Below are positions 1,072-60,349 of a stretch of DNA of 64,000 nucleotides, in pieces. Each line of letters starts with the position of its first letter. Positions within the stretch are counted from its first letter, which is position 1. This DNA comes from Anaerolineales bacterium (lineage in GTDB: Bacteria; Chloroflexota; Anaerolineae; Anaerolineales; Villigracilaceae). A program made the translations under genes and the position numbers. The DNA lies in the NCBI GenBank assembly GCA_019187665.1, contig JABARH010000013.1, positions 1 to 64,000 of the forward strand. The letters are read 5' to 3'. The notes under the pieces were generated by a model. It had not been told where the DNA came from and searched no databases. It saw nothing but the letters and a program-made list of their open reading frames with translations.

Positions 1072-4000
1072 ATGCCTTCCTCCTTCCAATCCATCATCCT
1101 CAACCTCCAATCCTTCTGGGCATCGCACGGATGCCTCATTACCCAGCCTTATTACACCCAAGTCGGCGCTGGGACGATGAACCCGTCCACCTTCCTGCGC
1201 GTGCTCGGACCCGAACCGTGGAACGTGGCGTATGTCGAGCCGTCTGTCCGCCCCGATGATGGGCGTTACGGCGAGAACCCGAATCGCTTTCAGAAGCACA
1301 CGCAGTTTCAAGTCATCCTCAAGCCCGACACGGGCAACCCTCAGGAGTTGTATCTCGACTCGCTCAAAGCGCTCGGCATTGACCCGCGCCAGCACGACAT
1401 CCGCTTTGTGGAGGACAACTGGGAACAGCCCGCCATCGCCGCGTGGGGTTTGGGTTGGGAGGTCTGGCTCGACGGGCAGGAGATCACTCAGTTCACCTAC
1501 TTCCAGCAGATGGGCGGCGTGGCGCTCAACCCCGTCTCGGTCGAGATCACCTATGGGCTGGAACGCATCCTCATCGCTCTCAATAACGCCAAAGCCATCT
1601 GGGACGAAGAGTGGGGCGCAGGTGTCACCTACGGCGAGATCATCCGCCGCGAGGAGTTCGAGCATTCCAAATATTATTACGAGATCGCCGACGTCGAGCG
1701 CGCCCGTCAGATGTACGATCTCTTCTCCGCCGAAGCCGACGCCTGCCTCGCGCAAGGTCTGCTCGTCCCCGCGCATGATTACGTCCTCAAGTCCTCGCAC
1801 ACCTTCAACATCCTCGACGCCCGCGGCGCGATCTCTGTCGCCGAACGTCAGGCGTTCTTCAGACGAATGCGCGAACTCGCTCGCCGCGTCGCGGAGGGAT
1901 ATGAGGAACAACGTAAGGAACTTGAATATCCGTTATTGCGAGAGGCGATACTCGATACTCGAAAATCGAATATCGAATTATCGAATATCGCTCTAACCAA
2001 ACCCGCACCCTTCCTTCTCGAGATCGGCACCGAAGAACTCCCCGCCTCCGATGTCGACTCCGCCCAAACGTATCTCGTATCCCGTATCCCGACTCTGCTC
2101 CACGAACTTCATCTCACGCACGATAACATCCGCGTCTTCACGACCCCGAAGCGGATCGCCGTTTCGATCGACTCTCTCTCCCCGAATCAGCCCGACCGCG
2201 AAGAGGTGGTCAAAGGTCCCCCCGCGGACAAAGCCATCGTAGGACAAACTTCCAGTTCGTCTGCGGGTCAAACTGGAAGTTTGTCCTACACGCCCGCCGC
2301 GCAAGGCTTTGCAAAGAAAAACGGAATCAACGTCGAAGACCTCCAAGTCCGCGAGCAGGACGGGGGCAAATACGTTTTCGCCGTCGTCAAACAAAAGGGA
2401 CGCCCGACTCCCGAGGTCTTAGCCGAAGCCTTGCCGAAACTCATCGCAGAGATCAAATTTGAAAAATCCATGCGCTGGAATGACTCAGGTGTTTCATTCT
2501 CGCGTCCGATTCGCTGGTACGTGGCATTATTCGGCGACATGGTCATCCCGTTCGAATATGCTGGCGTGGTTTCAGGCAACATCTCACGCGGACTTCGTCC
2601 GTACGATTCACCCGAAATCAAAATCCCCTCGGCAGATAAATATTTTGACGTGATCCGTGAAGCAGGTATTATCCTCGATAAAGAAGAACGCAAAGCCTCC
2701 ATCGTGGAGCAAGTCAAGCAAGCCGCGTCGTTGGTCGGTGGGGAGGCGCTCATCGAAGATGGACTGCTCAACGAAGTCGCCAACCTCATCGAAATGCCCA
2801 CCGCCGTCATGGGCGGATTCAACTCTGAGTTTTTGACATTGCCAAGAGACGTGCTGATCTCGGTAATGAAAAAGCATCAGAGGTATTTTCCGATCCAGTC
2901 AAAAGTCGAAGGTCAAAAGTCAGGCGACCCTTCGACCTTCGACCTTCGACCTTCGACGCTCTTGCCTCACTTCATCGCCATCCGCAACGGAGACGACATC
3001 GGCGTGGACATCGTCCGTCAGGGCAACGAACACGTTTTGAGCGCGCGCTTCACCGACGCGAATTTCTTCGTCCGCGAAGACCTCAAACTCAAACTCGAAG
3101 AATATCGTCCCAAGCTATCTTCACTCACATTCCACACCAAACTCGGCTCGATGCTCGATAAATCGGAGCGCATGTTGAAACTTTCCTCCGAAATCGCGGA
3201 CATGCTCCGTCTCTCAGACTTGGAACGTGACAACCTGAAACGTGGAACGTATTTGATGAAAGCGGATTTGGTCACTCAAATGGTCACAGAGATGACATCC
3301 CTTCAAGGGATCATCGGCGGCGAATACGCGTTGCGAAGCGGCGAACAAAAAGATGTTGCCGCCGCTATCGCTGAACAATATCAAACCGTGCCAAAATCGA
3401 AAATTGGTCTGGCAATTGCATTAGCCGATAGACTCGATTCACTGGTTGGTCTGTTCGCCGCAGGGCTGGCTCCCACAGGCGCGAAAGACCCGTTCGGTCT
3501 GCGCCGCGCCGCGATTGGCCTGGTCCAACCGTTGATCGAACATGATGTGGATTTTGATCTTGCCGAAGCGGTGAAGAAGTCCGCGAAGACACAGCCGATC
3601 AAAGTTGATGAGGCAACGCAAAATCAAATTTTGGAATTTGTTGCTGGGCGTTTGTCTGTTGTCTTGAAAGACGCTGGTTACAAACACGATGTAGTCGAAG
3701 CTGTGCTTGCGGAGCAGCGCAACGCGGCCAACCCTGCCGCGTCCGCTCGGGCGGTGAAGCAACTTCAAGCGTGGGTCGGACGCGAGGACTGGTCCACGAT
3801 CCTGCCCGCGTTCGCGCGTTGTGTCCGCATCACGCGCGATCAGAAGACGACATTCAAAGTCAACGAGAAAGTCTTTGTCGAAAAAGAAGAAAAGGATTTG
3901 TTCGCGGCGATTCAAAAAACCGCCAACCGTCAACTATCAACCACCAACCGTCAGCCGTCAACCATCAACGATCTCCTCGAAACTGTCGTCAAACTAACCC

Positions 4001-4140
4001 CATCCATCAACGCGTTCTTTGATAAAGTGCTGGTGATGGCGGAAGAACTGAAGGTCAAAGAAAATCGTCTTGGCTTGTTGCAACAAATTGCCGCGCTGTC
4101 CAGCGGTCTCGCCGACCTGAGCAAACTCGAAGGGTTCTAA
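1072..4140 (+). CDS. glyQS: Glycyl-tRNA synthetase, fused alpha and beta subunits
   Basis: This cytoplasmic class II synthetase charges tRNA-Gly. Residues 1 to about 290 are the alpha (GlyQ) catalytic part, with motifs such as [20 protein letters not shown] and [15 protein letters not shown]. From about residue 310 ([10 protein letters not shown]) to the C-terminus runs the beta (GlyS) part, with a DALR-like anticodon-binding tail ending [15 protein letters not shown]. At 1022 residues it equals alpha plus beta, which many bacteria keep as two genes. Four low-complexity insertions interrupt the frame without breaking it, at 1947-1990, 2239-2289, 2898-2957 and 3923-3969. All appear to lie in linkers or loops. 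An intrinsic terminator follows the stop. Confidence 0.97.
1947..1990. repeat. In-frame TCGAATA-type heptamer tract in the alpha-beta linker of glyQS
   Basis: Units such as GATACTC, GAATATC and GAATTATC repeat with a period near 7 nt and are partly self-complementary (TCGATA against TATCGA). They encode the linker between the alpha and beta parts. A tract of the same family lies at 17433-17495 in front of nuoL. Confidence 0.8.
2239..2289. repeat. 19-bp perfect inverted repeat inside glyQS
   Basis: GTAGGACAAACTTCCAGTT (2239-2257) and its exact reverse complement (2271-2289) flank a 13-nt loop. Read in frame this gives a Ser/Gly/Thr-rich insert, [17 protein letters not shown], in the beta part. 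It has the form of a REP-like palindromic element accepted in frame. Confidence 0.93.
2898..2957. repeat. In-frame GTCAAAAG/TTCGACC foldback repeat inside glyQS
   Basis: The left half repeats GTCAAAAGTCGAAGGTC-like units and the right half repeats ACCTTCG heptamers, so the two halves can pair (GTCGAAGGTC with GACCTTCGAC). They encode an insertion of roughly 15 residues before [12 protein letters not shown] related tract precedes nuoM at about 19603-19660. Confidence 0.8.
3923..3969. repeat. In-frame CAACCRTC repeat inside glyQS
   Basis: Units of CAACCGTC, CAACTAT and CAACCATC repeat with a 7-8 nt period and encode a polar Asn/Thr/Gln/Pro/Ser stretch near the C-terminus. Similar units recur at about 4190-4212 before dnaG. 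Confidence 0.75.
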
Positions 4141-4215: not shown

Positions 4216-6162
4216 ATGTCCACTATTGATGAAGTCAAAGCCCGGATAGATATCGTGGATCTCGTCTCGGAGGCCGGGGTAAAACTGCGCCACGCCGGGA
4301 AAAATTATACCGGCTTCTGCCCCTTCCACGATAACAAACACACGCCCGCCTTCGTCATCTGGCCCGAAACCGGAACGTGGCGCTGTTTTGGCGCGTGTAA
4401 CGAGGGCGGCGACATTTTCAAGTTTGTGATGAAGCGTGAAGGGCTGGACTTCAAAGAGGCGTTGCAAAAACTCGCCGCGCGCGCGGGCGTGCAGGTGGAC
4501 TCGTATCAGCGCGAAACCCCCGAACAAAAAGAAGCCTACGATAACCTGCGCAAATTGCTCGAGGATGCGGTCATTTTTTATCGCGGGCATTTGCTGAACA
4601 GCAGGGAGATCCTCTCGTACCTGCGCGAAAAACGCGGGTTGAGCGACGCTACGATCGAGACGTTTGGACTGGGGTACGCGCCGCCCGGCTACGAAACCGC
4701 CCTCAAACATTTCACGGCGAAGGGATATTCCGAACAGGAACTCATTGATTCAGGATTGCTTACTGTTCGCGAAGGGGAAAGTACACACGTAGACACGTAC
4801 ACAGGTACACGAGTCTATGATCGTTTTAGAAATCGAATCATGATTCCCATCCGCGATGAGCAGGGACGCATGGCGGGATTCGGCGCGCGCATCGTGGACC
4901 CGAACGATATTCCGAAATTTTTAAACTCGCCCGAAACGCCGATCTTTTCAAAGGGACGCCTGCTCTATGGTCTCGACCGGGCGCGTAAGCCGATTCGGAC
5001 CGCCGATCAAGCGGTGATCGTCGAAGGTTATCTCGATGTGATTGCCCTGCACCAGGCGGGATACGAAAACGTCGTCTCGCCGATGGGCACCGCGCTCACC
5101 GAAGACCAGATGCGCCTGCTGAAAAAGTTCACGCGAAGAATTGTCCTCGCGCTCGACCCGGATGTGGCCGGTCAAAAAGCCGTGCTGCGCGGACTGGACG
5201 CGGCGCGCTCTGCCATGGACAAGGAAGGTGAGTTGGGATTCGATGCGCGCGGCTTGTTGCGAAATGAATCCCGTCTGCAAGCAGACTTGCGTGTGGCAAG
5301 CATGCCAGATGATCTCGACCCCGATGAGATCGTCGCGCGAAATAAAGAAGAGTGGAAAACATTAATTGAAGACGCGAAGCCCATCGTCACGCATGTAATG
5401 GAGACTCTGGCGGCGGGACAAAATATCAACGACCCAAAGGTGAAGAATCAGATCGCGGCGCAGGTGCTTCCTTTAATTGCAGACTTGCCCAACGCGTTGG
5501 AGCGCGACACGTACCGCCAGGCGTTGGCGCGGATGTTGAAGGTGGACGAGCGCGCACTAATGGAGTCGCCCGCCCAGGGTCAGCGGGTGAGGCGGCCCCG
5601 CTTGGAGCGGAGGGATCCGCCCCCGTCGGAGGCTCCGGTTGCAGGGCTGGCGGTTGTGGCAGGGTCGCTTATCCACAAATCAGAGGCGCATTGCCTGGGA
5701 GTCTTATTTCGCAGGCCCGAGTTGTTGTATCGGCTGGACCGCCGCTTGCAGGAAGGCGGGCTGGCTTCGCTTTCGACGGAGGATTTTGAATACACCGATC
5801 ATCAGATGCTCTTGACCCTGATCCGCCAGTCGTTGGAGCAGGTGGAAAGCGATCAACATCAATACGTGGTGATCCATTTGACGGATTCGCTGAAAACTCT
5901 GGCGCAGGAATTGCTGGCGGAGGCTGAGAAACTGAAACCGTTGGAGGAGCGTCTGCTGGAGGATTTGGAGCGCACCGTGCAAAAAATTCGCAGGACACGC
6001 GCCAGCCAGGACCTGACGCAGACGCGCTTCTTGCTGGAAGAGGCCCAACAAAGCCAGGATCCGATCGTTTCGTTCTATCAGCGCCGCGCCCTGCAACTGG
6101 CGCAATTGTTGAATTCCCTCGATCAGGCCAAACGTCATTCAACGTTACGCAGGCAGACCTGA
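4216..6162 (+). CDS. dnaG: DNA primase DnaG
   Basis: This enzyme synthesises RNA primers at the replication fork. The start at 4216 ([17 protein letters not shown]) is where family members begin; the open frame upstream only translates the terminator. The CHC2 zinc finger has C35, H38, C57 and C61, with three residues instead of two between the last cysteines (CFGAC). The TOPRIM core has [12 protein letters not shown] and ALDPDVAGQ. At 648 residues it has normal length, including a C-terminal helicase-binding region. An octamer repeat (4781-4813) encodes a short extra loop, [12 protein letters not shown], just before the [12 protein letters not shown] segment. rpoD starts 1 nt after the stop, the classic macromolecular-synthesis pairing. 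Confidence 0.97.
4781..4813. repeat. Octamer repeat GTACACAC/GTAGACAC inside dnaG
   Basis: Four consecutive 8-nt units (GTACACAC, GTAGACAC, GTACACAG, GTACACGA) lie in frame in dnaG. The same octamer family forms long tracts at 16402-16570, 56921-56984 and 60257-60349. Confidence 0.85.
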
Positions 6163-14754: not shown

Positions 14755-15872
14755 TGGATTGGGCATTGCTCCTCGAGTGGTTTCTTAAATCGCTGGTGTT
14801 GATCTTCGGGCTGCTGGGCGGGTTCGCTTACACCACCTATTACGAGCGGCGCTGGATCGCGCGCTTGCAGGTGCGCGTGGGGCCGAACCGCGTTGGGCCG
14901 CTGGGACTGCTCCAGCCGATCGCGGACGCGGCGAAGTTGATCTTTAAGGAAGAGTTGACTCCCGCAAAAGTGTACAAGACGGTCTTCTTCCTTTCTCCGT
15001 TGTTGACGATGGTGCCGTCGCTGGTGATCGCGGCGGTGATTCCGCTGGGGACTTCGTTCACGCTCGGCGGGCGCACGATTCACATGTACCTGGCGAACAT
15101 CAACGTCGGCGCGCTGTACCTGATGTCGGTGGCTTCGATCGCGGTGTATGGCATCGTGCTGGCGGGCTGGTCGAGCAATAATAAATATGCCATGCTTGGC
15201 GGGCTGCGTTCCACGGCGCAGATGATCTCGTATGAGCTGACGCTCGGCCTGATGTTCGTGGCCGCGATCCTGTTGGGCAATTCGATGAGCATGGTGGATA
15301 TTGTGGAAGGGCAGAGGGATATGTGGTTCGGCGCGATCCAGCCTGTCGGGTTCGTGCTGTTCTTTATCGCCACGCTGGCGGAGGTGAATCGCTCCCCGTT
15401 CGACATGCCCGAAGCGGAGCAGGAATTGACGGCGGGCTATCACACCGAATATTCGGGGATGAAGTTCGCGCTGTTTTTCATGGCCGAATACCAGAAGATG
15501 ATCGTAGTGAGCATGATCGGCGCGACGTTGTTTTTGGGCGGGTATCGCGAACTCTGGTTTTTGAAGGATACCTTCCTGAGCGTGGACCGCGCCTGGTTCC
15601 TCGGGCCGTTCTATCTGGTGGCGAAAGTCTTTCTCTTATTGGGATTGATGATCTGGATCCGCGCCGCGTGGCCGCGCATCCGCTACGACCGCCTGATGTC
15701 GCTTGGCTGGAAGGTGTTGGTGCCGCTTTCGCTGGCGGTGATCTTCCTGACGGCCGCGGGAATTTTGATCGAAAGCAGTTGGTTCATTTTGATATCTTCC
15801 TTACTGGCAGCGGCGGTCGCGGTGGCTTTTATCCAGCGCGCGCTGAGGAGAAAAGCATATGAGTTTGCTTGA
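14754..15872 (+). CDS. nuoH: NADH-quinone oxidoreductase subunit H
   Basis: This membrane subunit (372 residues, about eight to nine helices) forms most of the quinone chamber. It contains ARLQVRVGPNRVGPLGLLQP and AEVNRSPFDMPEAEQELTAG, both highly diagnostic. It shares one base with the nuoG stop and overlaps nuoI by 14 nt. Confidence 0.96.
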   Translation: MDWALLLEWFLKSLVLIFGLLGGFAYTTYYERRWIARLQVRVGPNRVGPLGLLQPIADAAKLIFKEELTPAKVYKTVFFLSPLLTMVPSLVIAAVIPLGTSFTLGGRTIHMYLANINVGALYLMSVASIAVYGIVLAGWSSNNKYAMLGGLRSTAQMISYELTLGLMFVAAILLGNSMSMVDIVEGQRDMWFGAIQPVGFVLFFIATLAEVNRSPFDMPEAEQELTAGYHTEYSGMKFALFFMAEYQKMIVVSMIGATLFLGGYRELWFLKDTFLSVDRAWFLGPFYLVAKVFLLLGLMIWIRAAWPRIRYDRLMSLGWKVLVPLSLAVIFLTAAGILIESSWFILISSLLAAAVAVAFIQRALRRKAYEFA

Positions 15873-16413
15873 ACCCATCATCGAGTTGGGGCGCGGGCTC
15901 GTCATCACGATGAAGCAGGCGCTTTTCAACCCTGTGGTGACGGTCCAATACCCTGAAGTAAAACGCGAGGTGCGGCCGCGCTTCCGCGGGCGTCACGTCT
16001 TGAAGCGTTACGAGAACGGGCTGGAGAAGTGCATCGGCTGTTCGCTGTGCGCGGCGGCTTGTCCCTCGGACGCGATCTTTGTGGAGGCCGCCGAAAACAC
16101 CGACGAGAAACGCTTCTCACCAGGCGAGCGCTACGCGTCCACGTATGAGATCAACATGATGCGCTGTATCTTTTGCGGGTTCTGCGAAGACGCCTGCCCG
16201 ACGGAGGCCATCGTGCTTGGCGATAATTATGAACTCTCCTTCACCAACCGCCGCGACGCGATCTATCCGAAGGAAATGCTGCTCGAACCCGTTCCCTCCG
16301 CCGATATGACCACGCCGCGCAAAACGGAAGCGAACGTGTTCACGCGCTCGGTGCCTGAGATGAAGAATCCGAAGGATTGGGAGTCGGGAGACACGGTGAA
16401 GGTAGACACGTAG
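15859..16413 (+). CDS. nuoI: NADH-quinone oxidoreductase subunit I
   Basis: This 8Fe-8S ferredoxin-like subunit (184 residues) has two tetranuclear cluster motifs, CIGCSLCAAACP and CIFCGFCEDACP. It relays electrons to NuoB. The last residues and the stop codon are encoded by the first units of the octamer tract that follows (GTA GAC ACG TAG), so the present C-terminus was set by the repeat. Confidence 0.95.
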   Translation: MSLLEPIIELGRGLVITMKQALFNPVVTVQYPEVKREVRPRFRGRHVLKRYENGLEKCIGCSLCAAACPSDAIFVEAAENTDEKRFSPGERYASTYEINMMRCIFCGFCEDACPTEAIVLGDNYELSFTNRRDAIYPKEMLLEPVPSADMTTPRKTEANVFTRSVPEMKNPKDWESGDTVKVDT

Positions 16414-16570
16414 ACATGTGGACACGTAGACACGTAGGCATGTAGACATGTAGACACGTAGACATGTAGACATGTAGACACGTAGACATGTAGACATGTA
16501 GACATGTAGACACGTAGACACGTAGACATGTAGACACGTAGACATGTAAACACGTAGACACGTAAACATG
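16402..16570. repeat. Octamer tract GTAGACAY between nuoI and nuoJ, about 21 units
   Basis: Units are GTAGACAC and GTAGACAT in irregular order, with rare G or A variants. Read forward, one phase of three contains TAG stops; read backward, all phases are open and give peptides of the MSTCLRVY type, which are not credible genes. It lies inside the nuo operon. Confidence 0.96.
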
Positions 16571-17130: not shown

Positions 17131-17432
17131 TGGTTCCTGTCAATTACTACATTATTCTTTCGGCCATCTTGTTCACCCTCGGCGCGTTGGGCGTGCTGGT
17201 CCGCCGCAACCCGCTGATCATGTTCATGTCCATCGAGTTGATGTTGAACGCGGCCAATCTCGCGATGGTCGCATTCTCCAGCGTCAACCATAGTTTCAGC
17301 GGGCAGATCTTCGTCTTCTTCGTGATCGCAGTCGCGGCGGCGGAGGTGGCGGTGGGCCTGGCCTTGATCGTACAGATCTTTAAATCGAAACATACGATCA
17401 ATGTGGATGATGTGAACTCTCTCAAGGGATAA
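17130..17432 (+). CDS. nuoK: NADH-quinone oxidoreductase subunit K
   Basis: This is a 100-residue, three-helix antiporter-like small subunit. The conserved acidic residues of NuoK are present in [14 protein letters not shown] and in [13 protein letters not shown]. Length and position between nuoJ and nuoL are canonical. Confidence 0.95.
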
Positions 17433-17495
17433 TTCGATATTCGATATTCGATATTCGATATTCGATATTCGACTCTCGCGGATCGAATATCGAAT
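17433..17495. repeat. Foldback heptamer tract TTCGATA upstream of nuoL
   Basis: Five or more TTCGATA units are followed, after a short spacer, by the complementary ATCGAATATCGAAT (17482-17495), so the tract can fold into an AT-rich hairpin. It ends 13 nt before the nuoL ATG. Confidence 0.9.
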
Positions 17496-30213: not shown

Positions 30214-31722
30214 TTAATCGCCGACCGCAGATCGTTTCTTCTCCAACAATTCCCGAATCTTCGCATGCTTCTCGCGCGTGAGCGGATAGAACCAGGCGCT
30301 GAGGATCGCGCCCGAAAGGATGACCGCGCTGATCGGAGAGACCATCAGCCGAATCATCGTGAGCGTGGACTCGGATTGCGTGAACTGGAGCGTATCGTCC
30401 GACGGGGGAACGTAACCCGCCCAGCCGAGCAATTGCAATGTGATGAAGACGGTCAACGCGCTGGCCAGTTTGCGAATAAAGGCGCGCGCGCCGTAGTAGA
30501 TTCCCTCCTGGCGGCGGTTCGTTTTTAATTCATCCCATTCAATAATGTCGGGGAACATTGAATCGGGCAACACGTATGCCGAGGAAAGCCCAATGCCAAG
30601 CAGGACGCTGAATGCGAGCATCTTCGTCACTTCGCCGGGCTGGACGGTGAGGATCAACACCTGATTGATCACCCAGAAGATCATGCCGGTCAGATAGGCG
30701 CGGCGTTTGTTGGTGCGCTTCGAGAGCCACATCCAAAACGGGACGAAGCAAACGGTGGTCAACATAAGCGTGCCGAGGATGGCGGACTCGAGCGCGAGGT
30801 GGAATCCGAAAATATTCACGCCGGCCAGCGGATCGCCCTGCGCGATCCAGTAGAGGGAAAAATATGGGAAGGTCACCGCCACCATGTCCACCGCCGACCA
30901 GTTCATGGTGTGGACGCCCGCCAGAAACCGAAAGGGTCTGTTTGCCCAGGCTGTGCGGAGCATCTCGCGCAGTGAAATCGGTTTCGGCTCTTCGACGATG
31001 GTTCGTTCTTTAAAGACAAATGGCATGATGAGATATGGCGGAATCGCCAGCCCGCCAAAGACCGCGCCGACCAAAAGGAATCCCTGTTGTTGACTCGCGC
31101 CCGCCGCCATCACGCCATCCACGATCATCGGCGCAAAGATGACGACTGCCAGCGAGGAGGTCAATTGAAAGAAGGTGCGGAAACTGGTCAGCGTGGTGCG
31201 CTCGTCGTAATCGGGAGTCAGTTCCGGGGTCAGCGAAAGGAACGGGATGGAGATCAGTGTGCTGAGCGTGTCGGCGATTGCAAATGCCAGCGTGATGTGG
31301 ATCGCCAGCGCGGCTTGACTCCTCCAGGGCGGCGCCCACCATAGCAGGACGAACGACAAGCCAAAAGGAATCCCGAACCACAAGAGGAACGGGAGTCTGC
31401 GTCCGCGCTTTGTGCGCACCCGGTCGCTGATCATCCCCACAATGGGATCGTTGATCGCGTCCCAGACGATTCCGAACAACGCCGCGAACGATCCGATGCG
31501 CGCGTCGAGTCCGACCACGTCCGTCAAATAGATGGCGTAGAAGACCGAGCGCAACATGCCGGTGGAGGAGAGTCCCCAATCCCCGGAGCCGTAGAGCAGT
31601 TTGTGGAGGAAGGTCAGCGTTTGGCTGTTGGCTGGTGGCTGTTGGCTGTTGGCTGTTAGCGATTGGCTGTTGGCTGGTGGCTGTTGGCTGTTGGCGGTTG
31701 GCGATTGGTTATTGATTGACAT
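30214..31722 (-). CDS. GPH-family sugar:cation symporter (MFS), repeat-extended N-terminus
   Basis: This is a 502-residue, 12-helix glycoside-pentoside-hexuronide transporter. It has the family segments YGSGDWGLSS, FYAIYLTDVVGLD, IVWDAINDPIVGMISDR (the conserved loop) and LTPELTPDYDERTTLTSFR. The first ~37 residues are a Gln/Asn/Ser/Pro repeat (ANSQQPPANSQ) encoded by a heptamer tract; homologous transporters begin directly at the KLLYGSGDWG part. The natural start may have been lost or moved into the tract. The substrate is unknown. A broken four-helix-bundle gene ends 1 nt upstream. Confidence 0.9.
   Translation of the reverse strand: MSINNQSPTANSQQPPANSQSLTANSQQPPANSQTLTFLHKLLYGSGDWGLSSTGMLRSVFYAIYLTDVVGLDARIGSFAALFGIVWDAINDPIVGMISDRVRTKRGRRLPFLLWFGIPFGLSFVLLWWAPPWRSQAALAIHITLAFAIADTLSTLISIPFLSLTPELTPDYDERTTLTSFRTFFQLTSSLAVVIFAPMIVDGVMAAGASQQQGFLLVGAVFGGLAIPPYLIMPFVFKERTIVEEPKPISLREMLRTAWANRPFRFLAGVHTMNWSAVDMVAVTFPYFSLYWIAQGDPLAGVNIFGFHLALESAILGTLMLTTVCFVPFWMWLSKRTNKRRAYLTGMIFWVINQVLILTVQPGEVTKMLAFSVLLGIGLSSAYVLPDSMFPDIIEWDELKTNRRQEGIYYGARAFIRKLASALTVFITLQLLGWAGYVPPSDDTLQFTQSESTLTMIRLMVSPISAVILSGAILSAWFYPLTREKHAKIRELLEKKRSAVGD
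31617..31720. repeat. Heptamer tract TTGGCTG inside the 5' end of a transporter gene
   Basis: About 14 units of TTGGCTG, GTGGCTG, TTAGCGA and TTGGCGG follow one another. On the minus strand they encode the first residues of the GPH transporter as a 7-residue periodic Ala-Asn-Ser-Gln-Gln/Pro peptide. Confidence 0.95.
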
Positions 31723-32137: not shown

Positions 32138-32205
32138 AGCCAATAGCCAATAGCCAATAGCCAATAGCCAACAGCCAATAGCCAATAGCCAATAGCCAAT
32201 AGCCT
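32138..32205. repeat. Heptamer tract GCCAATA between two transporter genes
   Basis: About nine units of GCCAATA, one being GCCAACA, end right at the stop of the second GPH transporter. It is a relative of the TTGGCTG tract at 31617-31720 in complementary orientation. Confidence 0.93.
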
Positions 32206-55416: not shown

Positions 55417-56910
55417 ATGCGCTCCGGCATTTTTCTCCTTCTTTCAGCCTTCTGCCTTCTTTTTTCCTCCTGCTCCTCCTCCAATTCGGCGCCCACCGCG
55501 GCCCTGCACGCCATTCCCACCCTCACCCCGACCGTGGATACATCTACTCCAATCATTTCCGCACCCGACACCGCGACGCCTGACACTGAAACGCCCTCCC
55601 TGCCTCACTACACCTTAAACGTCACGCTCGACTACCGCCGCAAACGATTGACCGTCGAAGAAAACATCCTCTACCCAAACACAACCGGCGAGACCTTGAG
55701 CGATCTCGTCCTGGCGGTCATGCCGAACGCCTGGACCTCGGTCTTCAAATTGACCAGACTGGAATTGAACGACGCGCCCGCCAAAAATTACAAACTCGAC
55801 GGCCAGCGATTGACCGTGACTCTCCCCGCCTCGCTTCCTCCCGCAGGGACAGTGGAGCTTTCCATCGCGTACAGTCTCAGCCTGCCGGAGATTCAAGAAG
55901 AGTTGTCCACCACGAAAATCCTCCCGCAGTTTTTCGGATACACCGACCGCCAGCAGAACCTCGTCAACTGGTATCCGTTCATCGTCCCGCGCGGCGCGGA
56001 TGGCTGGATCCTGCACGATCCCTGGTACTTCGGCGAACATCTCGTCTATGACGCGGCGGATTTTGAAGTCAACATCAAGAATGCGGAGGAGGGAATCCGC
56101 CCCACGATCGCCGCCAGCGCGTTCGGAGAACCGCACGGCGAATGGACTCGCTTCACCTTGAACAACGCGCGCACCTTTGCTTTTTCCGCCAGCACAGAGT
56201 TCCAACGCTCGGCGACCAACGCCGGCAACGTGTTCGTGTACAGTTATTATTTTCCAACCTACGAATCCGCGGGCGAAGCCGCGGCCCTCGCCGCCGCCGA
56301 CGCGATCGAAGTCTTCAGCCAGCGCTTCGGACCGTATCCGCGCGAGTCGCTGACGATCGTGATGAGCGACTTCAACGACGGCGCGGAATTTTCGGGCTTC
56401 TTCTTTTTGAGTAAGGGATTCTATCGGACCTACGACAGCACGCGCGCCAACTACCTGACCTTTATCTCCGCGCACGAGACCGCGCACCAATGGTGGTTCG
56501 AGCAGGTCGCCAGCGATCAATATCTCGAACCCTGGCTGGACGAGGCGCTCTGCGCCTACAGCGAACATATTTTTTACGAGCAGACCGATTCGCCCCTGCT
56601 CGAATGGTGGTGGAACACGCGCGTGGATGCCTACACCCCGCATGGCTACGTGGACATTCCGCTCGACACAACCTTTGAAGACGAGGAATACCGCCAGTAT
56701 GTCAACGCAGTCTATCTGCGCGGCGCGCGATTCCTCGACGACCTGCGCGCCCGTATCGGCGATGAAGCCTTCTTTGCCTTTTTGCAGGATTATCTGAATC
56801 AATTCAATGGCAGGCGCGCCACAGCAGATGATTTTTTCACCGTCCTACGTCAACACACGGACGCGGATATTTCGGATCTGGTTTCAGAATATTTTCAGGG
56901 TCAACATTGA
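55417..56910 (+). CDS. M1-like metallopeptidase lipoprotein (first of three)
   Basis: This 497-residue secreted gluzincin has a signal peptide ending in a plausible lipobox at Cys19 (LLFSSCSSS) and a Thr/Pro linker to about residue 65. A beta-rich N-terminal domain follows, then the catalytic domain. Zinc ligands are H353 and H357 in HETAH with E376 in WLDEAL, the HExxH-x18-E spacing of M1. The GAMEN-like substrate motif is replaced by GAEFSGFFFLS. It likely trims peptides at the cell surface. The following peptidase gene starts 1 nt after the stop. Confidence 0.9.
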   Translation: MRSGIFLLLSAFCLLFSSCSSSNSAPTAALHAIPTLTPTVDTSTPIISAPDTATPDTETPSLPHYTLNVTLDYRRKRLTVEENILYPNTTGETLSDLVLAVMPNAWTSVFKLTRLELNDAPAKNYKLDGQRLTVTLPASLPPAGTVELSIAYSLSLPEIQEELSTTKILPQFFGYTDRQQNLVNWYPFIVPRGADGWILHDPWYFGEHLVYDAADFEVNIKNAEEGIRPTIAASAFGEPHGEWTRFTLNNARTFAFSASTEFQRSATNAGNVFVYSYYFPTYESAGEAAALAAADAIEVFSQRFGPYPRESLTIVMSDFNDGAEFSGFFFLSKGFYRTYDSTRANYLTFISAHETAHQWWFEQVASDQYLEPWLDEALCAYSEHIFYEQTDSPLLEWWWNTRVDAYTPHGYVDIPLDTTFEDEEYRQYVNAVYLRGARFLDDLRARIGDEAFFAFLQDYLNQFNGRRATADDFFTVLRQHTDADISDLVSEYFQGQH

Positions 56911-56911
56911 G

Positions 56912-58519
56912 ATGAATAACGTAGACACGTACACACGTACATACGTACATACGTACACACGTACACACGTAGACACGTACACAGGGCACAAGCAGCCTGT
57001 CTCCCATCTCCTGTCACGCATCCTGATCCTCTTTGCGTTCTTACTCATGTCCTGCTCTCGCGCCGCTTCCTCCTCAACTCCCGACCCCTCGACACATTTG
57101 ACGCCTTCGGCGCTTTCGAACCTGACACCTGACACTGTAACACCTGACACCTCAACGCCAACGAATACACCTCCGCCTCCCTCCACGCGTCCACGCTACA
57201 CATTGGATCTGCAACTCAACTACGCAAACAAATCCGCTTCCGTCAACGAGACCATCCTCTACACCAACCAAAGCGCGGACATGTTGACCAGCCTGACCCT
57301 CGGCGTCGAACCGACCTGCACGCAGAGTTTCAATCTCAGCGGAATTTTTCTGGACGGCCAGCCGGTTAGCAACTACATCTTCGATGTTCAGAACGTCCAG
57401 CCGTATATTCGCCATCGTTTGGAGATTCCGCTCGCCCAGCCGCTCGCGCCGGGCAACAAGCTCACGCTTCAGATCGGGTTCACATTGATTCTTCCTGTCG
57501 TCGCCAACTACAGCGACGAGACCAGTCTCTGCTCGCAGATCATCGGCTACACCGATAAACAGATCAACCTCGTGGACTGGTATCCCTTCGTCGCGCCGTA
57601 CATCAACGGAAAATTCGTCTTGCACAACCCCTGGTATTACGGCGAACATCTCACCTATGAATCTGCGGATTTTGAAGTGAATGTGAAAATTGAGGACGGC
57701 GCGAACGTGGTCATCGCCTCCAGCGGGGAGGAAATCGTCAGCGACGACCCGGCCAGCCGCACGTTCAAGCTGGAAGCGGGGCGGACGTTCGCGCTCTCGT
57801 TCAGCGATTCATTCCAGGTCGCATCCACACAAGTCGGCGATGTGACCATCTTCAGTTATTACTTCCCCGGCTATGAAACATCCGCGCAGGCTGTGCTGGC
57901 TGCGACTGCGAAATCGTTCGAGGTCTATAGTCAACGCTTCGGCGCGTATCCGCACAAAACTCTCACCGTGGCGCAAGGCGACTTCGAAGATGGCATGGAA
58001 TATTCGGCGTTCTATTTTCACAGCCGCGGCATTTACAACAACTACGATGGCACACTCGTCAATCATCTCACCGCGGTCAGCGTACACGAGACAGCGCATC
58101 AGTGGTGGTTCGAGCAGGTCGCCAACGATCAGGGACTCGAACCCTGGCTGGACGAATCGCTCGCGACCTATAGCGAGATCGTCTATTACGAAACCGTCCA
58201 GCCCGCCGCGCTCGACTCGTGGTGGTGGACGTATCGCTTCACACCCTTTGAGCAAGCCAAACCCGTGGACACAAGCATCTACGATTGGCACGGTGGTTAC
58301 ACCGCATATCAAAACCTTGTTTACCTTAACGGCGCCGATTTTCTGCGCCAACTGCGCGCGCGCACCGGCGACGAACTGTTTTTTGCGTTCATGCAGGATT
58401 ACCTTGCGCAAATGCGCGGCAAAATTTCCACCACCCCCGATTTCTTCCGCATCCTGCGCGAGCATACCAGCGTGGACCTCTCCGACCTGATCGCGTTGTA
58501 TTTTCAAAATTCGTATTGA
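56912..58519 (+). CDS. M1-like metallopeptidase lipoprotein (second of three), repeat-extended signal peptide
   Basis: This is a 535-residue paralogue of its neighbours. The zinc site is H392-E393-x2-H396 with E415 ([12 protein letters not shown]), and the GAMEN-like motif is [11 protein letters not shown]. The lipobox Cys is at residue 48 (FAFLLMSC), unusually far from the start. Residues 4-25 ([20 protein letters not shown]) are encoded by an octamer tract. No ATG, GTG or TTG in frame lies between the tract and the hydrophobic core, so the repeat-derived start seems to be the one used. Confidence 0.88.
56921..56984. repeat. Octamer tract GTACACAC/GTAGACAC in a peptidase 5' end, eight units
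   Basis: Exactly eight 8-nt units (GTAGACAC, GTACACAC, GTACATAC and variants) are translated in frame as the N-terminus of the second M1-like peptidase. Confidence 0.95.
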
Positions 58520-58525
58520 GAAGAT

Positions 58526-60256
58526 ATGTATACAAGTAAACACGGACACACGCACACACGTACCCAGGTACACAATCATCTCGCATCTCGTACCTCGTAT
58601 CTCGTATCCCGTATCCCGTATCTCGTACCCCGTATCCCGTATCTCGTATCCCGTATCCCATATCTCGTATCTCGTACCCCGTATCTCGTATCCCGTATCC
58701 CGCACCTCGTATCTCGCATCTCCTGCCTCCTCGCTTGCATGTTCCTCATCTCCTGCGCGACCGCGACTCCCGGCGCGACTCCCACCTCGATCTACGCCGC
58801 GCCCTTCATCCTTGCGACTCTCGACCCCGGCGCATCGCCGCACACTCCCACCGAAGCGGACACCCCAACCCCAACCTTGATCCCCACCGAAACATTCACC
58901 CCGCCTCCGCCCGCCACCTTAACACCCGAAGCCTCAACGCCTGACGCCTCGACCCTTCCGCCTCCCACGACTCTCACACGTCCATCCTACACCGTCTATG
59001 CCACAGTGGATTACGACAATCACACTGCCGAAGTGGACGAATCCATCCTCTACCCAAACCTGAGCGGCGTAACGCTCAGCGACCTCGTCATCGCCGTCGA
59101 ACCGATGTTGTACGGCAGCGCCTTCTCCCTGACCAGCCTTTCTGTGAACGGACTGCCGATCGCCAATTACACCCTCGACTCACATCGTCTCACCGTCCCC
59201 ATTCCCGCCCTGCCATCCGGCTCGCAAATCTCGCTGGTCATCGAATACAACCTGAACATCCCGGTCAAACAAAAAGCCAACACCTTTGGCTGGCTCGACT
59301 ATCAAACCAACTTGACCGAGTGGATTCCATTCGTTGTCCCGTATGACCCAAACAGCGGTTGGATTCTGCATGACTATATTCCATGGGGCGAGCATCTCGT
59401 TTATGATTCCGCCGACTTTGAAGTCAATATCCGCTTTTCCGCTTCGCAATCCGCTCCAATCATTGCCGCGCCCGCCCTGCCCGAAGCCAACGGCGAATGG
59501 ACGCGTTACCGCCTGCCCGGCGCGCGCACCTTCGCGCTTTCGCTGAGCCGCGATTTCCTCGTGGATGAATCCGCTGTCGGGTCCACTGCGATCCGCACCT
59601 ATTATTTCGCCGGTCACGAGGGCGCCGCCGACAAGATGACCACCGTCGCCGGTCAGGCGGTCGGTCTGTTCGAGCCGAAATTTGCGGAATATCCCTATCC
59701 GGTCCTCAGCGTGGTCGAACTCGATTACAACGACGGACTCGAGAACGACGGATTGATCTTCCTCTCCAGCGCCTTCTTCGACCAGTACAACGGCGGCGTG
59801 AAAAACAACCTGACCGTGCTGGGCGTCCACGAGATCGCGCATAACTGGTGGTTCGGACTCGTCGGCAGTGACCAGGCTCAGGAACCCTGGCTGGATGAAG
59901 CGCTGTCACTGTACAGCGAGCGCATCTTCTTTGAATTTACCAATCCCGAACTCGTGGACTGGTGGTGGCAGTTCCGCGTTAATTACTTCGGTCCCAACGG
60001 CTACGTGGACATGACCATCTACGATGCGGTCTCTTTCCGCGATTACACCAATGCGGTTTACCTCAACGGCGCGACCTTCCTTGAAGATTTGCGCGTTCGC
60101 ATGGGCGATGAGGCGTTCTACAAATTCATCAAAGACTACGCCGCGCAGATGTCCCACCGCCGCGCCGCCGCCGATGACTTCTTCCGCATTGCGCGTTCGC
60201 ACACCTCGAAGGATATTTCCGATTTGATCGCGGCGTATTTTGCAAGCTCTCATTAG
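58526..60256 (+). CDS. M1-like metallopeptidase lipoprotein (third of three), repeat-extended signal peptide
   Basis: This is a 576-residue paralogue. The zinc site is H435-E436-x2-H439 with E458 ([13 protein letters not shown]), and the GAMEN-like motif is [11 protein letters not shown]. The lipobox Cys is at residue 77 ([10 protein letters not shown]). Residues about 25-66 are a seven-residue repeat, YLVSRIP, encoded by a CTCGTAT heptamer tract, preceded by a [13 protein letters not shown] stretch from octamer-like sequence. The long Thr/Pro linker ends near residue 155. Whether Sec recognises so long a signal is unknown. Confidence 0.88.
58579..58722. repeat. Heptamer tract CTCGTAT/CCCGTAT in a peptidase 5' end, about 20 units
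   Basis: Seven-nt units CTCGTAT, CCCGTAT, CTCGTAC and CTCGCAT follow one another. Because 7 is not divisible by 3, all three phases are read, and all are open. The result is the heptapeptide repeat YLVSRIP. Confidence 0.96.
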
Positions 60257-60349
60257 GTACACACGTAGACACGTAGACATGTACACACGTAGACACGTAG
60301 ACATGTACACACGTAGACACGTACACACGTAGACATGTACGCATGTAAG
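60257..60349. repeat. Octamer tract GTACACAC/GTAGACAC after the third peptidase
   Basis: About eleven units of GTACACAC, GTAGACAC and GTAGACAT start directly after the TAG stop of the peptidase gene. The stop itself sits at the tract border, as at nuoI. Confidence 0.93.

Follow-up and report, generated by a model that had tools for sequence, protein, structure and literature searches.

The locus described here raises the question of how a tandem octamer came to lie in frame within the gene encoding DNA primase, and whether its presence there is an isolated event. The window (the whole 64,000-nucleotide stretch of DNA analysed) contains the following features in and around the array.

4216–6162, + strand: dnaG (DNA primase) with an in-frame octamer array, identified by translation and Pfam; ATG at 4216, stop at 6162.
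4781–4812, + strand: four octamers, GTACACAC GTAGACAC GTACACAG GTACACGA, which code for 11 residues together with the preceding base.
4789–4810, + strand: 22-mer GTAGACACGTACACAGGTACAC, identical in the dnaG of the congener G005, in a second gene of the window's own genome (G000) and in five other G005 genes.
4816–4851, + strand: conserved DnaG block of 12 residues, beginning one codon past the octamer array.

The gene product contains the Pfam domains Zn_ribbon_DnaG, DNAG_N, Toprim and DnaB_bind. Tandem Repeats Finder analysis of positions 4781–4812 returned a period of 8 with 3.8 copies, 86% matches and a score of 46. Relative to GTASACAC, the first two units are exact and the third has a single mismatch, with a degenerate copy in fourth place. 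The four octamers are direct repeats covering 32 bases, and no inverted arm was identified at the array on reading the sequence. Translation showed that the array is in frame and adds approximately 10 residues ahead of the conserved block, confirming the preliminary description, in which four octamer units formed an extra loop at this position.

DnaG was compared across 110 loci in two sets, one of 30 that includes the window's own and one of 80, with some genomes represented twice. No insert was present in 48 loci, where the sequence resembles EREDGKRYDK and the compared stretch is no longer than 31 residues, versus 41 in the window; the other 62 loci have 1–17 extra residues at the octamer spot. 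Conservation of the octamer-coded residues in DnaG of species lacking the octamer family was not encountered, these residues being present in none of the 109 other loci compared. The DnaG of G005, which was examined separately from the 109 loci, reads APTQVDTYTGT, and G005 also has the octamer family.

In alignments to solved primases, the insert corresponds to a gap of 10 residues in the Escherichia coli enzyme (1dd9, 1eqn) and of 6 residues in that of Aquifex (2au3). An AlphaFold2 model based on 36 window and locus sequences placed residues 186–195, with pLDDT below 50, between the strands 181–184 and 198–201; the overall quality of the model was low (mean pLDDT 68.8, pTM 0.39, poor Toprim region), and it was used for the local hairpin only. 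Foldseek matches with an E value no higher than 0.001 numbered 21; all were primases, the full-length ones having low TM-scores. The model fits an insert predicted to form a disordered hairpin tip in the primase RNA-polymerase domain.

The octamer is not confined to dnaG. Long tracts had been proposed at three other places in the window, and these were borne out at 16402, 56921 and 60257, with a degenerate fourth at 58540.

16402–16569, + strand: octamer array of 21 units; the ORF at 15859–16413 terminates within it.
56921–56984, + strand: octamer array of 8 units in the 5' portion of an ORF of peptidase family M1 whose start codon is uncertain.
58540–58571, + strand: degenerate octamer array located 5'-terminally in the peptidase M1-family ORF that follows, start codon likewise uncertain.
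60257–60344, + strand: octamer array of 11 units, beginning right behind the stop codon of the ORF at 58526–60256.

The region 56807–60256 thus holds an adjacent pair of ORFs, both of peptidase family M1 and each with an octamer array in its 5' part, although the start codons of both ORFs (at 56807 and 58526) are uncertain. Searching for GTASACACGTASACAC with at most two mismatches gave 39 matches in the window versus none in 100 dinucleotide shuffles. When the 64 kb were scanned at lags 2–30 (score of at least 12), ten segments had period 7 and five had period 8; the remainder lay at multiples of 7 or 8, apart from one at lag 18, and all other lags gave zero. No segments were detected in ten order-1 Markov resamples of the window, for which the scan was confined to lags 7 and 8. 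Long heptamer arrays are present at 928–1063, 17432–17472, 31621–31708, 32138–32204 and 58577–58722; these long arrays are of the ACTAATC, ATTCGAT, TTGGCTG, CCAATAG and ATCTCGT types, and exact junctions with ORF ends were seen at 17432 and 32204.

The window's own genome, G000, comprises 3.5 Mb in 57 contigs and is 98.45% complete. The proposal that the octamer is dispersed holds genome-wide: the double unit, with at most one mismatch, has 951 matches in G000 versus 31 for a reversed control, and 490 copies are exact. Across 61 genomes of the genus, family and order, the next highest count of exact double units was 65, in G005. The remaining 59 genomes had at most 7 (the next values being 7, 4 and 4), and 47 genomes had zero; a set of 54 genomes that shares members with these 61 had G061 in third place with 21. 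The octamer family is lineage-specific. Octamer arrays sit mostly outside genes: among the 32 own-genome arrays examined in the window and in further stretches that were read, one of which turned up twice and was counted once, three were judged to be coding (that of dnaG and two in one membrane protein), and the array at 56921 was unsure. Two G000 loci, L150:1570-1638 and L020:1416-1516, contain inverted pairs of octamer arrays, the members of each pair lying 5 and 21 bases apart, respectively; these could form hairpins.

The membrane protein is encoded at G000:C3:21747-23966 and has 740 residues with no Pfam match. It contains two in-frame octamer arrays, of 4 and 17 units. Its orthologs form a graded insert series: G002 and G007 lack both arrays, G005 has a short insert at the position of the second, and G000 has 17 units there. 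The 22-mer GTAGACACGTACACAGGTACAC has seven matches in G000, four of them in this membrane-protein gene, and 12 in G005. Frame reading placed two of four array sites in G000 and seven of 12 sites in G005 inside genes, a distinction between gene and non-gene frames that was made partly by eye and that excluded antisense-looking open frames over the arrays. All nine in-frame sites code for VDTYTGT with Q, H or R as the next residue, and the alternative frames are also free of stop codons. The G005 genes with the octamer in frame are as follows.

dnaG: in the loop.
pheT: within the B5 domain.
ABC ATPase gene.
Gene for a LUD-domain iron-sulfur protein: within the LUD domain.
Gene for a long membrane protein (Pfam PMT_2): two sites.
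Gene for another membrane protein (Pfam PMT_2).

The seven sites represent six genes, since L172 and L174 share one contig and an overlapping protein and were taken as one long gene. The suggestion that the octamer can enter core genes was therefore upheld by this survey of other genes. The pheT insert corresponds to an 11-residue gap in the alignment to the solved enzyme of the 4p71 group, which we take to be that of Pseudomonas. Within the coding units in the TAG-capable phase, all seven read TAC, although amplification of a 24-base unit means that these seven do not count as independent; the remaining coding units had C in 10 and G in 8. In eight arrays regarded as intergenic, the units had G in 54, C in 22 and A in 2 (n = 78). 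In L188 and L174 of G005, a single protein was seen to have several repeat-like inserts, with octamer-coded stretches beside NYQLPITN, which is seemingly heptamer-coded.

Coding repeats act as phase-variation switches in some pathogens, and as the unit length is not divisible by three, the gain or loss of one octamer in dnaG would shift the frame and turn the gene off. Such a switch is, however, extremely improbable at this locus, given that dnaG is essential, that its array has only four units, two of them inexact, and that the octamer family stands in frame in unrelated housekeeping genes. A loop selected for a function, such as contact to a replication partner, with the repeat DNA as mere raw material, would be compatible with the 8–10-residue inserts, which are common and hydrophilic-looking, and with translation of the octamer in a single frame only. 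This explanation is nonetheless very unlikely, because the insert sequences are unrelated across lineages, 48 of the 110 loci manage without an insert and the same peptide occurs in unrelated proteins. The octamer-coded peptide is probably without a dedicated role and would be neutral.

The dnaG loop of G005 contains several repeats in one open frame, on a contig that starts within dnaG. Octamers that include the window's 22-mer are followed by ACGCAAC heptamers and then by the palindrome GGTCTCGATACGGCGGGAGAGCATCGCCTACTCGACCAGCGG. Two more copies of the palindrome were found in G005, at C50 and C248, and ACGCAAC double units number 19 in this genome (one within dnaG) versus at most 9 in seven congeners. 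The octamer insert of dnaG was most likely acquired in the common ancestor of G000 and G005. As the 22-mer is common to both genomes, and with G005 placed off the tree, the octamer insertion probably predates their split, and the heptamers and palindrome would have been added later in G005. Searches for GATACGGCGGRAG with one mismatch were at chance level, with matches like those of the reversed control in 10 genomes; for exact matches in G005, both sites read outside dnaG contain the palindrome. Exact GATACGGCGGRAG was seen at least 12 times in G004 among the matches listed, exceeding the other genomes shown, and this may be the palindrome family of the G005 dnaG loop.

Many of the other dnaG loop inserts are also tandem DNA, built from units other than the octamer. 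Examples of these are listed by locus.

L128, L063, L067, L072 and L120, among others: AATCTCC.
L068, L078, L098, L116 and L131: ACGCAAC and variants.
L038: AACTCGC.
L140: ACACCCG.
L056: ACACCGGA.

The insert at L099 was observed to consist of CCCTTCGACAAGCTCAGG, presumably a widely scattered repeat, followed by heptamers of the CAACGTC type. Tandem segments were scanned at lags 4, 5, 7, 8, 10 and 11 in 88 distinct dnaG sequences that remained after removal of duplicates. At a score of at least 12, 15 segments were detected, 14 of which begin at residues 186–197 and lie within residues 186–199 of 647; all 14 have lag 7 or 8, and at least six unit families are represented among them. Lowering the score to 10 gave 24 segments in the 166,134 bp scanned, with 21 in the loop (18 of lag 7 and 3 of lag 8). 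Because neither 7 nor 8 is divisible by three, the repeats arose as DNA and not as protein repeats. The DnaG loop looks like a hot spot common to lineages and filled by differing 7- or 8-base repeats. G023 has GGTACACAGGTTTAC at the loop spot and four octamer double units in its genome. The possibility that ACACCGGA is a dispersed family was ruled out, its sole occurrence in the 54 genomes counted being the dnaG of G012; birth in place without dispersal therefore also occurs.

The neighbouring gene, glyS, showed the same tendency at several places.

1072–4140, + strand: fused glycyl-tRNA synthetase alpha-beta gene (Pfam), with period-7 arrays at several places.
1946–1990, + strand: heptamer arrays where the alpha and beta parts of the synthetase meet.
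2897–2957, + strand: two inverted heptamer arms, AGTCAAAAGTCGAAGGTC and GACCTTCGACCTTCGAC, in the synthetase gene.
3918–3973, + strand: array of AACCGTC heptamers in the part of the synthetase gene that codes for the C-terminal region.

Analysis of 49 fused synthetase genes (125,534 bp) identified 57 tandem segments, of which 56 have lag 7. These cluster mainly at residues 289–316, 607–631, 713–725, 925–931 and 946–968, and the heptamers in the loops differ between genomes. Several of the arrays consist of two arms in inverted orientation, making a hairpin possible. Most of the stretch coded by 2897–2957 falls in an alignment gap of the solved GlyRS 7lu4, and at the C-terminal array the listed alignment to 7lu4 shows a gap no shorter than 5 residues.

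The turnover of the dnaG loop was assessed on a tree of the protein without its loop. The tree comprised 87 of the 88 sequences, L141 (G005) having been dropped by a motif filter. Loop classes were set by hand, with any insert no longer than 2 residues scored as absent and with AACTCGC (L038) and ACGCATC (L131) placed under ACGCAA; on this basis, 18 changes were needed for insert presence and 32 for loop class. Sisters with 78–89% identical flanking DNA carry different loop families in L067/L127, L068/L072 and L079/L080. The loop of L067 is of the AATCTCC type and that of L127 is ACGCAAT/C; the L067 loop has 87% identity to that of L072 versus 49% to that of its sister L127. Beyond the loop, two downstream windows favour L072 and most others favour L127, so that short-tract exchange may contribute too.

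These patterns could be taken to mean that dnaG loop versions cross species by short-tract recombination and that few repeat births took place, as differing loops between flanks of 78–89% identity and the affinity of L067 to L072, with which two downstream windows agree, would suggest. Such an exchange of alleles as the main process is quite unlikely, however, as it must account for the six or more unit families among 14 dnaG loop segments and for many more in glyS.

Motif counts were obtained from 47 or 54 genomes picked for the presence or absence of inserts, and the comparisons given here thus refer to a non-random set. Exact double units of ACGCAAC, with loop copies subtracted, were higher in 13 genomes with ACGCAA-type loops than in 34 others (p = 1.7e-4), the AACTCGC row L074 standing outside the ACGCAA class in this test. 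Those of AATCTCC, counted likewise, were higher in 6 genomes with AATCTCC loops than in 41 others (p = 2.3e-3). The loop repeat family tends to match a family of the same genome. Independent pairs from the tree showed a link in the expected direction (4.3 versus 1.0 and 2.6 versus 0), which was not significant. AATCTCC-rich genomes without AATCTCC in dnaG were also found (G079 with 103, G069 with 46, G090 with 44 and G072 with 26), as was ACGCAAC without such a loop (G087 with 9, G071 with 7 and G064 with 5). Conversely, ACGCAA-type loops are present in the ACGCAAC-poor genomes G079 (0), G070 and G081 (1 each), and both copies in G077 are in the loop.

Purely local replication slippage would have each loop repeat born from its own short seed, and the likeness to intergenic arrays would reflect a shared expansion of 7–8-base units. 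The restriction of ACACCGGA to the dnaG of G012 is in keeping with this, as are the GGTACACAGGTTTAC of G023, a possible one-unit seed in a genome with four octamer double units, and the prevalence of periods 7–8 in the window, dnaG and glyS alike. It is unlikely to be the whole explanation, though, since arrays in other genes of G000 and G005 match the dnaG 22-mer exactly, these two genomes are the octamer-richest of the 61, and loop family follows genome family in the plain test.

The explanation that we consider likely is that lineage-specific tandem DNA with 7- or 8-base units recurrently seeds and grows, and that its survival within genes requires both an intact frame and a tolerant loop. 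In bacteria of the Anaerolineales type, tandem DNA with a 7- or 8-base period would repeatedly arise and spread, in families that differ by lineage. A seed may be copied to a new site by short-tract copying or conversion, or by template switching, and could then grow via slippage or unequal exchange. Purifying selection would leave, within genes, those copies that keep the frame, contain no stop codons and encode a tolerable peptide in a tolerant surface loop. A few loops, including that of DnaG and a number of those in GlyS, would be refilled by whichever family is active because only frame-keeping, stop-free and loop-tolerated copies survive. No enzyme for dispersal of the octamer was found. 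A bolder version, which we put forward tentatively as possible but somewhat short of probable, is that an active process in Anaerolineales makes, disperses and replaces period-7/8 repeats, that the VDTYTGT subfamily spreads as a coding module and that the loops of core enzymes record successive bursts.

The loops thereby offer a natural experiment in how selfish or passively expanding DNA turns into protein. Their fillings may be read for insertion-tolerant surface loops and for the pace at which repeat families replace one another, as well as for whether the 7–8-base unit stems from some feature of how the replication machinery works. They also serve as a warning that variable loops of Chloroflexota enzymes can represent repeat DNA and not function.

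Known repeat systems resemble these arrays in part. REP-type repeats often adjoin Y1 transposase genes, and Y1 transposase matches (PF01797) number 7 in G000, 1–3 in congeners and 6 in G061. As in REP/RAYT systems, G000 thus contains small dispersed repeats together with Y1 transposases, but the octamer is tandem and not a single palindrome. A Y1 (REP-type) transposase as the mover of the octamer is unsupported, no octamer double unit being present within the 2.5–3 kb read around any of the seven G000 loci. At L154:1623-1867 (G000:C9), a 50-base unit in approximately 5 copies was noted approximately 260 bases from a Y1 transposase match. Terminal inverted repeats, by which MITEs are recognised, are absent from the dnaG array.

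The STRRs of cyanobacteria have a tandem heptanucleotide unit and a cyanobacterial host, and Vioque is said to have described STRRs within RNase P RNA in 1997. The unit in dnaG, in contrast, is an octamer, and the nearest named dnaG records are from Anaerolineales/Chloroflexi and not from cyanobacteria. A narrow search of the open-licence literature found no report of heptamer or microsatellite repeats in Chloroflexi or Anaerolineae, which does not prove that the phenomenon is unpublished. Elsewhere, G-rich heptamer arrays that are under-represented in coding regions are described in Xanthomonas and Nostoc (PMC4692102), and TAACTGA heptamer arrays in Beggiatoaceae (PMC4679880). Earlier work cited in the latter holds that coding repeats prefer unit lengths divisible by three, that among the long simple repeats of most genomes heptanucleotides are the commonest, and that contact with the polymerase may underlie a length of 7 bases (PMC4679880). 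A 7-base unit set by polymerase contact would fit the mechanism proposed here. Rickettsia palindromic elements are described as palindromes of 105–146 bp with terminal inverted repeats, which occur intergenically as well as in frame within conserved genes (PMC2229807).

The octamer shares with the Rickettsia elements its position in frame in conserved genes (dnaG, pheT, the ABC ATPase gene and the LUD-domain gene), with tolerated extra peptides. It differs from them in that the dnaG octamer is a direct tandem repeat of 32 bases, although the glyS arrays and two octamer sites do have inverted arms. Its short tandem units, genome-wide scatter (490 exact double units in G000) and mostly intergenic position are like those of cyanobacterial STRRs and similar heptamer arrays. 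Their dominant period of 7 is likewise matched by the related Anaerolineales-type genomes, which use mostly heptamers. In contrast to those systems, the units here vary by lineage, with an octamer dominant in the present one, and the arrays are placed in frame in core genes at recurrent loops. The octamer family belongs to neither the STRRs nor the Rickettsia palindromic elements, and its special point is that the same coding loops are used repeatedly by 7- and 8-base units, a pattern that is wider than one gene.
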